Shown here: positions 1 to 8,143 of the stretch, piece by piece
Layout of the letters: each line of letters begins with the position of its first letter
Numbering within the stretch: position 1 is the first letter of the stretch
From: Deltaproteobacteria bacterium
Lineage (GTDB): Bacteria > Campylobacterota_A > Desulfurellia > JAGGSF01
Direction of reading: 5' to 3'
Length of the DNA: 9,374 bases
NCBI GenBank assembly: GCA_021159235.1
Contig: JAGGSF010000114.1
Span: 1 to 9,374, forward strand
Notes under the pieces: generated by a model
The model's database searches: none
Told to the model about the DNA's origin: nothing
Seen by the model: only the letters and a program-made list of their open reading frames with translations
Made by a program: the position numbers and the translations under genes

Positions 1-527
1 ACACTTACAATAAGAGGGTAGGCCAGTGCGCCTTTAATCTTTCTTTTTAAAGTTAGCGACCTTTCTAAAAGGGTGGCTATGTTTTCTAAAGATTTATCAA
101 GATTGCCACCCATTTCTCCTGCTTCTACTGTACTTGTATAAAGTGGCGGGAATATATTTTTGTGTTTCCTTAAAGCATCTGCAAAAGACAGTCCCTCTTC
201 TATATTCCTCTTAACATCTCGCAAAATCTCAGCGAATTTCACGTTTTTCTGTTGTCTGGATAAAACATCTATCGATTCAGTGAGAGAGACACCAGATTTC
301 AGCATCACAGAAAGCTGCTTTGTAGAGGTCATCAATTCTTTCTGCTTCACCTTCCGCTTAAATGAAAATAGTTCTATTTTTTGTTTTTCTGTAACTGGTT
401 TTAGAGAAACGGGGATAAGTCCTTGCTGCCTTAGTTTTAAAATAGCCGCTTGCTTGCTTATGGCATCTATATTTCCCCTTAAAGTATCGCCAGTTTTGTT
501 TTTTCCCTTCCATTTAAAGGTAGGCAT
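1..527 (-). CDS. pilC: Type IV pilus inner-membrane platform protein PilC, N-terminal part (cut by window edge)
   Basis: The protein is a polytopic inner-membrane platform protein of the type IV pilus machine, of the PilC/GspF family. It is thought to couple the cytoplasmic ATPases PilB and PilT to pilin assembly. About 175 residues are visible, of roughly 400 usual for the family. They begin MPTFKWKGKNKTGDTLRG and continue with the basic N-terminal cytoplasmic part. The first T2SSF repeat starts near residue 68, with KQLSVMLKSGVSLTESI and the hallmark TVEAGEMGGNLDKSLENI near residues 140-158. The visible part ends with ALAYPLIVSV, at the start of the first membrane segment. The start ATG directly abuts the pilT stop (TAGATG), and GGAG at 537-540 provides a ribosome site 9 nt upstream. 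I see no damage in the visible part. The 3' end lies beyond position 1. This gene does not appear as a complete open frame because the window edge cuts it. Confidence 0.95.
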   Translation of the reverse strand, partial: MPTFKWKGKNKTGDTLRGNIDAISKQAAILKLRQQGLIPVSLKPVTEKQKIELFSFKRKVKQKELMTSTKQLSVMLKSGVSLTESIDVLSRQQKNVKFAEILRDVKRNIEEGLSFADALRKHKNIFPPLYTSTVEAGEMGGNLDKSLENIATLLERSLTLKRKIKGALAYPLIVS

Positions 528-1598
528 CTATACTCTCTCCAGCAGTGTTTTTAACTCTTCTTTTTTGAGTGAGGCATCCATTGCCTGATTGTAGGTAATG
601 AACCCTTTTTTATACAATTCAGCCAACGATTGGTTGAGTGTTTTCATCTTGGTTTTTTCCTGTCCTGTCTGCATGGAAGAGTAGATCTGAGGAATTTTAT
701 TTTCTCTGATGAGGTTTCTTATAGCATCATTGGGTATCATGATTTCCATTGCCAGCACCAAACCTTTACCATCCTTTCTTTTTAAAAGTTTTTGACTTAC
801 CACACCCTGAAGAACAGAGGAGAGTTGCGTCCTTATCTGATCTTGTTGTTCTGCTGGAAATACATCAACAATACGGGTTATTGTTTCTGAAGCAGAATTT
901 GTATGCAGTGTGGCAAAGACTAAATGTCCTGTTTCGGCAGCTGTTAGCGCTGCTCTTATCGTTTCTAAATCCCTCATCTCTCCAATCAAGATTACATCTG
1001 GATCCTGCCTTAACACATGTTTTAAGGCGGACGCAAAACTTTTTGTATCACTCCCTATTTCTCTTTGAGAAATCAGTGCTTTTTCATGCCTGAATAAAAA
1101 TTCTATGGGATCTTCAATTGTTATTATATGGCAATTTTTTTCCTTATTTATTTTGTTTATCAATGTGGCTAAGGTAGTAGATTTCCCTGCACCGGTGGGG
1201 CCTGTTATAAGCACAAATCCCTGGGAGAGATTTGTAAAATCCTGGACTACTCTGGGTATTCCCAGCTCTTCAAAGGATGGTATCTCAAAAGGTATAGCAC
1301 GAAAAGCACCTGCGACGCTACTTCTCTGTATATACACATTAGCCCTGAACCGACTTATACCTTTTATGCCAAAAGAAAAATCCACCGCCAAGTTCTCCTC
1401 GAATCTCTTCCTCTGTTTTTCTGTCATGATGGAGTAACATAGCTGTTGTGTGTCTTTTGATGTTAATACAGGATAATCATTCAGGTCTTTCAATTCGCCA
1501 GCTATTCTGACTTTGGGTGGAGCTCCACTGATAAGGTGAAGATCTGATGCGCCCAATTTGACAATTTCTTTTAAAAGTTCAGTTATACCCTCCTTCAT
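528..1598 (-). CDS. pilT: Type IV pilus retraction ATPase PilT
   Basis: PilT is a hexameric cytoplasmic ATPase that powers pilus disassembly, and so twitching motility and DNA uptake. The 356-residue length is typical. An N-terminal PAS-like domain (about 1-100, with the family opening LGASDLHL) is followed by a RecA-like core. The core shows Walker A GPTGAGKST at 133-141, the Asp box IEDPIEF at 161-167, Walker B DPDVILIGEMRD at 199-210 and the His box TGHLVFATLHTN at 223-234. The motif AIRNLIRE at 292-299 is characteristic of PilT rather than PilB. No tetracysteine zinc site is present, unlike in the neighbouring PilB. The start ATG forms an ATGA overlap with the displaced PilB frame (stop 1595-1597). 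The upstream Shine-Dalgarno sequence is weak (only GGAAAG close to the ATG), so coupling to pilB translation is likely. pilC follows without a gap. Confidence 0.97.
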   Translation of the reverse strand: MKEGITELLKEIVKLGASDLHLISGAPPKVRIAGELKDLNDYPVLTSKDTQQLCYSIMTEKQRKRFEENLAVDFSFGIKGISRFRANVYIQRSSVAGAFRAIPFEIPSFEELGIPRVVQDFTNLSQGFVLITGPTGAGKSTTLATLINKINKEKNCHIITIEDPIEFLFRHEKALISQREIGSDTKSFASALKHVLRQDPDVILIGEMRDLETIRAALTAAETGHLVFATLHTNSASETITRIVDVFPAEQQDQIRTQLSSVLQGVVSQKLLKRKDGKGLVLAMEIMIPNDAIRNLIRENKIPQIYSSMQTGQEKTKMKTLNQSLAELYKKGFITYNQAMDASLKKEELKTLLERV

Positions 1599-1690
1599 CT
1601 TTCCACATCCATGGTTACCCGCAGGACCTCTTCCACCGTGGTTATGCCTTTTTTTACCTTTTCAACAACATCTTCTCTAAATTTTGAATT
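1595..1690 (-). pseudogene. pilB: Displaced C-terminal end of PilB in a second reading frame
   Basis: Read from the AAT codon at 1690-1688, this stretch encodes NSKFREDVVEKVKKGITT followed by VEEVLRVTMDVER and a TGA stop. This is an unmistakable PilB/GspE C-terminus (the family's ITTVEEVLRVT tail). From KEG to ITT the spacing after joining is 15 residues, the usual distance as I know the family. The TGA at 1597-1595 overlaps the pilT ATG as ATGA, the same junction style as elsewhere in the operon. This frame is open from 1720 downward and has an in-frame TGA at 1723-1721. It is therefore the true end of pilB separated from its body. Whether it is translated depends on the nature of the 43-nt insert. 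Confidence 0.88.
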
Positions 1691-1735
1691 ACGTACCACC
1701 ATTGCATCTTTCCTCACTAGTCAATGTGGAATTAC
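1686..1735 (-). repeat. 43-nt insert with 7-nt direct repeats and a hairpin inside pilB
   Basis: On the coding strand GTAATTC occurs at 1735-1729 and again at 1692-1686, exactly 43 nt apart. Between the copies lie 36 nt containing an imperfect inverted repeat: CCACATTG (1729-1722) pairs with CAATGGTGG (1704-1696). This makes 8 base pairs with one bulged G and a 17-nt loop. The similarity of the flanks extends to 11 of 13 bases (GTAATTCCACATT against GTAATTCAAAATT). Since 43 is not a multiple of 3, the insert shifts the frame, and the resulting TAA stop overlaps the second repeat copy. Removing one repeat plus the insert restores a canonical PilB. It could be a tiny palindromic insertion with target duplication, a diverged duplication, or a translational bypass element. 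I recognise no named family. Confidence 0.75.
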
Positions 1736-3419
1736 CCTCTTTTATTGCCTCTTTTCTCATTTCTTCCAGGTTCTTTCCCTCCAGGATCATTTCCCTGATT
1801 ACCCTGGTTATAGGGATAACCTCGAATAGGGCTATCCGTCCCTTATACCCGATGTTATTACAGTAGGAACAACCTTCTCCCCTGTATACCTTTGTTTTCT
1901 CATCTAAACCGAGTTTTCTCAGTGTCTTGGGTGGAACTTCTGCTTCTTTTTTGCAAAATGGGCATATTTTCCTTACCAGTCTCTGGGCGCAGGCCAAAAT
2001 TAAGGTGTTTGCTATTAAGTAAGGTTCTATTTTCATATCTCTGAGTCGTGCGATGGTAGAAATGGCGTCGTTGGTGTGAAGGGTGGAGAGCACGAGATGA
2101 CCTGTCAATGCTGCTCTTGTGGCAATTTCTGCAGTTTCTTCATCTCTGATTTCTCCAACCATTATTATGTCTGGATCCTGCCTTAAAAATGACCGTAGAA
2201 CATGGGGAAAGGTGAGACCAATCTCTTCTTTTACCTGAACCTGGTTTATGCCTTCTATGTTGTATTCTATGGGGTCTTCAACAGTAAGGATGTTTACTCC
2301 TTCTCTGTTTATCTTATTCAATGCGGTATAAAGAGTGGTTGTTTTTCCTGACCCTGTAGGACCCGTCACCAGAATTATTCCATACGGGGCTTCAATTGCC
2401 TTTTTAACCTTTCTAATATCATCTTCTTCAAGTCCTAAGTCCTTTAAGTCCAGTCCCATGACACTCGTTCTATCCAAGATCCTTAAAACCACCTTTTCTC
2501 CAAATACAGTGGGAGCAGTGGATACTCTGAAATCAATATCTTTACCATTTACCTTCAACTTGATTCTCCCATCTTGAGGTAATCTCTTCTCTGCAATATT
2601 TAATTTAGACATAATTTTGAATCGCGAAGATAAAGCAGGATAGATATTTTTAGGTGGCTCCATTATTGTATACAATATACCGTCTATCCTGTACCTTATG
2701 CGAAATACCTTTTCGTATGGTTCCAGGTGGATGTCTGATGCACCTCTTTCCACTGCACCTTGTATAATCTTGTTTGCAAGTCTTATAATAGGTGCTTCTC
2801 CTGCCTTTTTCTCTTCTGCTATTTCTTCTTCCTCTATGCTGGATGGAGCCTCTACCACATCTATCTCTTTTATTTCCTTATCTAAGTCCAAGTCCATAGT
2901 CTTTTGCTTAAACAGGAAAACACTTTTTTTCTCAGGTTTTTTGTAGTATTTATCTATCGCCTCGGTTATGGAACTTTCTGGTGCGATAAGAGGTATGATT
3001 TCCTTGCCTGTTATTTGTTTTACATCTTTTAAGGCAGTGATGTTTGCAGGATCGGACATGGCTACCTTTATCTTCCCATTTTCCTCTCCTATGGGGATCA
3101 ATTTGTATTTCTCAGCTACATCTGCTGGTATTAAATTGGCAACATTGTCTTCTATTGTAATCTTTTTTAAATCTGCAAATTCACCGGTATCTGCCTGCAG
3201 GAAGGAATACAGCTCGCTTTCTTCTAAATCCATGAATTCAAAGCTTGCCTGTTTCTGCAAGAAAGACTCTAACTCATCCTCACTGATGATTCCTTCCTCT
3301 ACCAGTATAGTACCTAATTTTTTTCCCGTTTTCTTTTGCTTTTCCAGAGCCATATCCAGTTGCCATTTATTGATTTTCCCAAAGAGTAAAAGTAGTTCGC
3401 CTAAGGGAATAAGACTCAT
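1689..3419 (-). CDS. pilB: Type IV pilus assembly ATPase PilB, C-terminal end shifted out of frame
   Basis: PilB is the cytoplasmic hexameric ATPase that drives pilus extension. In frame the protein has 576 residues. It has an N-terminal MshEN/T2SSE_N domain (about 1-160, opening PLGELLLLFGKINKWQLD), an acidic linker (about 170-205) and then the secretion ATPase core. The core shows Walker A GPTGSGKTT at 353-361, the Asp box EDPIEY at 381-386, Walker B around 414-430, the His box TGHLVLSTLHTND at 439-451 and a zinc tetracysteine CPFC/CSYC at 487-490 and 517-520. I chose ATG 3419 because it overlaps the aroE stop as ATGA and has GAAGGA at 3429-3434; an upstream ATG at 3467 is less likely. After KEGNS at about residue 564 the frame turns into non-family sequence and stops at TAA 1689-1691. 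The expected C-terminus lies in another frame down to 1595. A 43-nt insertion explains this; without it the protein would have 593 residues. Confidence 0.93.
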   Translation of the reverse strand: MSLIPLGELLLLFGKINKWQLDMALEKQKKTGKKLGTILVEEGIISEDELESFLQKQASFEFMDLEESELYSFLQADTGEFADLKKITIEDNVANLIPADVAEKYKLIPIGEENGKIKVAMSDPANITALKDVKQITGKEIIPLIAPESSITEAIDKYYKKPEKKSVFLFKQKTMDLDLDKEIKEIDVVEAPSSIEEEEIAEEKKAGEAPIIRLANKIIQGAVERGASDIHLEPYEKVFRIRYRIDGILYTIMEPPKNIYPALSSRFKIMSKLNIAEKRLPQDGRIKLKVNGKDIDFRVSTAPTVFGEKVVLRILDRTSVMGLDLKDLGLEEDDIRKVKKAIEAPYGIILVTGPTGSGKTTTLYTALNKINREGVNILTVEDPIEYNIEGINQVQVKEEIGLTFPHVLRSFLRQDPDIIMVGEIRDEETAEIATRAALTGHLVLSTLHTNDAISTIARLRDMKIEPYLIANTLILACAQRLVRKICPFCKKEAEVPPKTLRKLGLDEKTKVYRGEGCSYCNNIGYKGRIALFEVIPITRVIREMILEGKNLEEMRKEAIKEGNSTLTSEERCNGGT

Positions 3420-7549: not shown

Positions 7550-8143
7550 ATGGAGTTAGTGCCTATCGTTATTGAGAGAACACCGCGCGGAGAGAGAGCT
7601 TACGATATATATTCCAGACTTCTTAAGGAGAGAATTGTTATTATAGGAAGCACTATAGATGATGGGGTAGCGAGTTCTGTCATCAGTCAGTTGCTTTTTT
7701 TGGAAGCTGAGAATCCCGACAAGGATATCTATATGTATATCAATAGTCCAGGAGGTATTATCACTTCGGGTCTTGCCATATACGACACAATGCAGTATAT
7801 AAGACCGGATATTACTACCATATGCATGGGACAAGCGGCATCCATGGCTACTATTTTGCTGGCGGCAGGGAAGAAGGGGAAGCGTTATGCGTTACCACAT
7901 TCAAGAATAATGATTCATCAACCTGCAGGGGGAATCCAGGGCAAAGCCACAGAAATTGAGGTTCATGCGCGGGAGATACTTAAGTTAAGAAAAGATTTGA
8001 ATAAGATTCTTGCTTTTCATACTGGTAAAAGGATATCCACCATTGAAGAGGATACGGAGAGGGATTACTTTATGAGTCCGGAGGAAGCATTAGAGTATGG
8101 TATAATCGATGAAATATTAATTAAAAGAGGGGAAAAAGAATGA
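7550..8143 (+). CDS. clpP: ATP-dependent Clp protease proteolytic subunit ClpP
   Basis: ClpP is the serine peptidase that forms the double-heptamer chamber fed by ClpX or similar unfoldases. The 197-residue length is normal. The catalytic triad is complete: Ser98 in GQAASMA, His123 in MIHQP and Asp172 in TERDYFM. The N-terminus [20 protein letters not shown] is typical, with little or no propeptide, and the handle motif INSPGG is at 65-70. I chose ATG 7550 because AAGGAG at 7539-7544 sits 5 nt upstream; an in-frame GTG at 7544 would overlap that site. The ribosome site lies inside the end of tig, and the stop overlaps the clpX start as ATGA, so ClpP and ClpX synthesis are probably coupled. 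The stretch [13 protein letters not shown] departs mildly from the usual family wording but keeps the core IDD. Confidence 0.97.

Follow-up and report, generated by a model that had tools for sequence, protein, structure and literature searches.

The pilB gene analyzed here carries 43 extra nucleotides near its 3' end, which shift the reading frame and leave the end of the coding sequence in another frame; the gene is intact in two congeners, and the extra nucleotides resemble, head to tail, those that immediately precede them. We consider that a recent out-of-frame, out-of-register duplication or join of 43 bp, truncating PilB, is the best account of these observations, with a probability of about 0.52.

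The pilB Locus and Its Genomic Context

The window, i.e., the whole stretch of DNA that was analyzed, is the complete contig C45 (9374 bp) of the draft genome G000, which comprises 1.13 Mb in 122 contigs. The reported completeness of this bin is 100, and its reported contamination is 0.36%. The minus strand of the window contains pilB, pilT, and the start of pilC, and beyond pilB are found aroE and a small ATPase gene, then purH, tig, clpP, and clpX on the plus strand (the names of the genes other than pil were assigned by reading). The first 55 bases of the window (1-55) recur without a mismatch at the end of another contig of this genome, C15 (G000:C15:22699-22753), on which pilC therefore continues; 55 nt is a typical assembler overlap. 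The comparison genomes, G001 and G002, are two species of the same genus, and in both the pilB block is collinear with the window at ~86% nucleotide identity. The G002 assembly breaks inside pilT (L113, at the start of G002:C158, and L114, at the end of G002:C105), and the stretch matching 783-1564 of the window, in pilT, was absent among the G002 matches. In clpP, the window has one A more than the congeners in a run near the gene end (8133-8143), and the last few residues are changed accordingly (RGEKE here vs. RGEKNERCE in G001). The genome also encodes another PilB/GspE-like ATPase at a different locus (L032, G000:C39:2849-3904). It is intact and shows 48% identity over the core; in principle, it could belong to a different pilus or to a secretion system. 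The features of the pilB region are as follows.

1689-3419, minus strand: pilB ORF1, encoding MshEN/N1D, N2D, and most of the ATPase C-terminal domain
1723-1765, minus strand: copy 1, the 43 nt just upstream of the insert (28/43 match to the insert; 41/43 identical to G001)
1729-1735, minus strand: GTAATTC, first copy of a 7-nt direct repeat
1686-1692, minus strand: GTAATTC, second copy, at a distance of 43 nt from the first
1680-1722, minus strand: the extra 43 nt in their best placement (1678-1720 by MAFFT; 1693-1735 if placed by the 7-nt repeat)
1595-1717, minus strand: tail of pilB, comprising 40 codons of the +1 frame from the GTG at 1717, with the motif ITTVEEVLRVT
528-1598, minus strand: pilT, intact (TIGR01420)

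The original prediction was that the pilB frame leaves the family pattern after KEGNS and stops at 1689, and that a PilB-type tail follows in a second frame to a TGA at 1595. Both parts were confirmed. ORF1 is normal up to ...IKEGNSTL, its 566 residues being collinear with the congeners, after which 10 aberrant residues (TSEERCNGGT) precede a TAA at 1691-1689, so that the C-terminal end reads ...KEGNSTLTSEERCNGGT. The family C-terminus lies in the other frame, as ...FREDVVEKVKKGITTVEEVLRVTMDVER, and runs to the TGA at 1597-1595. The predicted count of 1825 nt from 3419 to 1595, one more than a multiple of three, also holds, and the other counts in the prediction are correct as well. In the tail frame, ITTVEEVLRVT is the C-terminal motif of PilB/GspE; the in-frame motif G-x-T-T-x-E-E-V... 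is missing from ORF1 and is present solely in this other frame. When the insert is included, the tail frame gives an ungapped 40-aa match to the end of G001 PilB at 65% identity, and it contains an internal ATG at 1702-1700 with GAGG nine bases upstream. The TGA of the tail frame overlaps the ATG of pilT as ATGA (window 1595-1598) here and in both congeners, which suggests translational coupling of pilB and pilT in the genus.

Comparison with models of the PilB family gave a concordant result. ORF1 matched the Pfam models MshEN (PF05157, E = 7e-21) and T2SSE (PF00437, E = 1.4e-138), and so contains an MshEN domain plus the T2SSE ATPase core. In the best-matching family, NCBIfam TIGR02538 (564 model positions), ORF1 aligns with positions 2-541 and the tail frame with positions 537-564. 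The score of ORF1 was 627.4 bits, below the equivalog cut-off of 675.65; because a tail of ~17 bits would leave the gap open, this low score does not result from the lesion alone.

A 43-nt Excess Relative to Relatives

The alignment of the window with each congener contained a single 43-nt gap in pilB, i.e., exactly 43 nt are extra relative to G001 and to G002, as expected from the discrete insertion that had been claimed. In both congeners, pilB is uninterrupted: its frame stays open across STLRENGIKKVKEGITTVEEVLRVTMDVEK and ends in the ATGA overlap with pilT, as the tail frame does here, and the spacing of 15 residues from EG to ITT, which the original prediction had called normal, is the same. 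An intact PilB of a relative with the stretch in frame had been named as a refutation, and this was not observed: among 103 PilB-related loci from the same class and from other phyla, the tail is in frame in 100 (95 by pattern and five by reading the printed ends), whereas the remaining three loci are either partial or distant matches. The 7-nt direct repeat, 43 nt apart, that was thought to bracket the shift is real (GTAATTC at 1735-1729 and 1692-1686), but the insert is better placed at 1680-1722. Since the congeners keep the bases following the first GTAATTC unchanged, the best placement is just after this copy, and the MAFFT placement at 1678-1720 fits equally well.

We also analyzed how unusual this insertion is within the genome. 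In the 9.4-kb alignment, it is the sole frame-breaking indel inside a gene body; all other indels in gene bodies are multiples of three, and single-base differences are confined to intergenic stretches and the regions near the ends of clpP and aroE. Across ~112 kb of aligned sequence, it is the sole insertion of 16 nt or more in G000 relative to G001. Among 93 sampled ortholog pairs, the largest 3' discrepancy was that of pilB (23 residues), followed by one of 11 residues. The sampled stretches contained no G001 gene split between frames in G000, in a test that would miss short tails like that of pilB. A generally indel-rich assembly was therefore rejected for the sampled G000 stretches compared with G001. 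The 43-nt excess is a discrete insertion and not the product of generally poor sequence, given that it is the lone frame-breaking indel in a gene body and that pilB has the most altered 3' end of the 93 genes.

Similarity of the Insert to the Preceding 43 Nucleotides

The repetition extends beyond the 7 nt that had originally been noted. When the insert is set head to tail against the 43 nt that precede it, 28 of the 43 positions match and 15 differ (65% identity), and on this basis the whole insert reads as a degenerate tandem copy. The likeness falls in two blocks (14/16 and ~12/14) with about eight almost matchless bases between them. Apart from the preceding segment and the insert, a single site, in aroE (29/43), reached a score of 28 among 794,890 43-mers sampled from both strands of G000; the chance of such a match is ~1-3 per 800,000 in G000 sequence, and none of 20,000 dinucleotide-preserving shuffles exceeded 24 matches. 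The residues encoded by the insert scored poorly in a position-specific comparison with 76 family C-termini (P = 0.06, not significant), so the likeness is argued from the DNA alone. A functional PilB as the donor of the insert was rejected on the same score.

The insertion appears to be recent. The tail 3' of the insert is 86.2% identical to G001, vs. 86.8% for the rest of pilB. The tail is thus no more diverged than the rest of the gene, which leaves little time for decay. However, the 15 differences argue against a plain recent slippage duplication, whose copies would be nearly identical. At four-fold sites, 25.6% of positions differ between G000 and G001. With this rate, 15 differences in 43 positions would be reached by an unconstrained copy made after the split from G001 with P ~5e-4, and at the full neutral distance of two lineages with P = 0.11. 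Slippage and drift from the present copy 1 alone are thus probably not the source. A divergent variant joined out of register, either in the cell (unequal recombination) or by the assembler, fits better. A search for further copies of the insert with up to three mismatches found none in G000, G001, or G002; short BLAST searches of ~390 kb each of G000 and G001 detected no source, nor was one found in viral contigs or plasmids. The insert has no inverted ends or hairpin, and no Rfam match to an RNA element was obtained.

In the preferred reading, a divergent copy of the preceding 43 bp would have entered near the 3' end of pilB by tandem duplication or a join. PilB thereby ends in 10 unrelated residues in place of its last 27, and the extension motor would lose the ordered C-terminal end of its ATPase domain. 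The structure of PilB from Geobacter metallireducens provides a reference: the built model comprises residues 181-568, with the C-terminal domain at 296-568 (PMC5424180), and the PilB end lost here aligns with the end of that model. Since the equivalent residues of that protein belong to its built C-terminal domain, PilB is probably inactive or impaired in cells with this allele. The data show the 43-nt excess, the frame shift, the intact gene in the congeners, and the tandem similarity; we infer that the lesion is real in cells, recent, and harmful to PilB.

Alternative Explanations

The main competing possibility, which we regard as tentative but serious, is an assembly artefact. Here, scaffolding, gap closing, or contig merging would have joined two variant ends of pilB out of register, the variants being strain variants or one an error-laden contig tip, so that one 43-nt stretch is present in duplicate, in two versions. 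The two versions stand exactly head to tail with 35% of positions different and normal flanks, and the insert has diverged too far from copy 1 to be a simple biological duplicate. The contig is also one of 122 in a draft genome, and its left end has 55 nt in common with the end of C15, as in de Bruijn assembly. Against this, the rest of the bin contains neither another variant of pilB nor a fragment of the gene nor any similar stretch; the reported contamination is 0.36%. There are no Ns at the insert site, nothing comparable occurs in the ~112 kb compared with G001, and the genes on either side of the insert have similar identities to G001. With an assembler based on exact 55-mers, the reads would have contained every 55-mer that crosses the insert, unless later gap closing made the join.

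It is improbable that the split gene still works. In such a case, either a +1 shift of the ribosome or a stop at the TAA (1691-1689) with a restart at the ATG (1702-1700) would yield the tail as an extension or a separate peptide, with coupling to pilT kept through the ATGA overlap. In favor of this, no stop interrupts the 40 codons of the tail frame, the family motif is preserved, and the frame closes at the pilT start, an arrangement shared with the congeners; of the four codon differences found in its last 17 codons, three are synonymous. Furthermore, a frameshift of 1 bp in the final codon of pilB, by which seven residues are added, leaves PilB functional in Pseudomonas aeruginosa (PMC12533971). 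However, a recent lesion would equally leave the tail intact, inspection by eye revealed no slippery site, and the search for a stable structure was negative (z = -0.09, with DNA parameters). In addition, a split PilB occurs in no relative, and the residues encoded by the insert score poorly as PilB. At the pilB locus, no evidence supporting recoding or a switch was found. A phase-variable locus would have identical repeats or a homopolymer whose contraction restores the frame, with several states in a population; here, the only exact repeat is 7 nt long, and the 43-nt copies are 65% identical.

An unrelated small mobile or random insertion, resembling copy 1 by chance or through a 7-nt target duplication, is likewise improbable: although no near-identical source was found and a 7-nt direct repeat flanks one possible placement, 28/43 matches in a fixed head-to-tail register are a few-in-a-million event in the sequence of G000 itself, and the insert has neither inverted ends or a hairpin nor further copies in the three genomes. 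It is very improbable that PilB is naturally split here, with the duplication creating a restart site, a separate C-terminal peptide completing the motor, and pilT staying coupled.

Implications and Comparison With Known Systems

The lesion is due either to a recent mutation of an ordinary kind that broke the gene or to an error of the assembly. This case is a caution, as a clean but probably private lesion or join error on a single contig of a draft genome is not to be taken as a feature of the lineage. If it is real, the strain would have lost or weakened pilus extension, with pilT and the neighbouring genes intact.

Short out-of-frame tandem duplications are a common class of spontaneous loss-of-function mutation in bacteria. 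The insert shares with them the head-to-tail placement, a length that is not a multiple of three, and short repeats at the ends, and its likeness to the preceding segment exceeds chance. Fresh tandem duplications are identical to their template, whereas the copies here are not near-identical (65%).

In the literature, we found no comparable pilB case besides the 1-bp suppressor of P. aeruginosa (PMC12533971). That mutation, a deletion of 1 bp, is likewise a frameshift at the 3' end of pilB, but it adds seven residues to a complete, functional PilB, whereas here 27 conserved residues are removed.

The closest known system is the type IV-A extension ATPase PilB (TIGR02538; PF00437 and PF05157). 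The domain order, the Walker region, and the CxxC pairs are common to both, as are the synteny with pilT and pilC and the C-terminal motif, which here lies in the second frame. Unlike in that family, the last 27 residues are out of frame in the gene described here, and ORF1 ends at model position 541 of 564.
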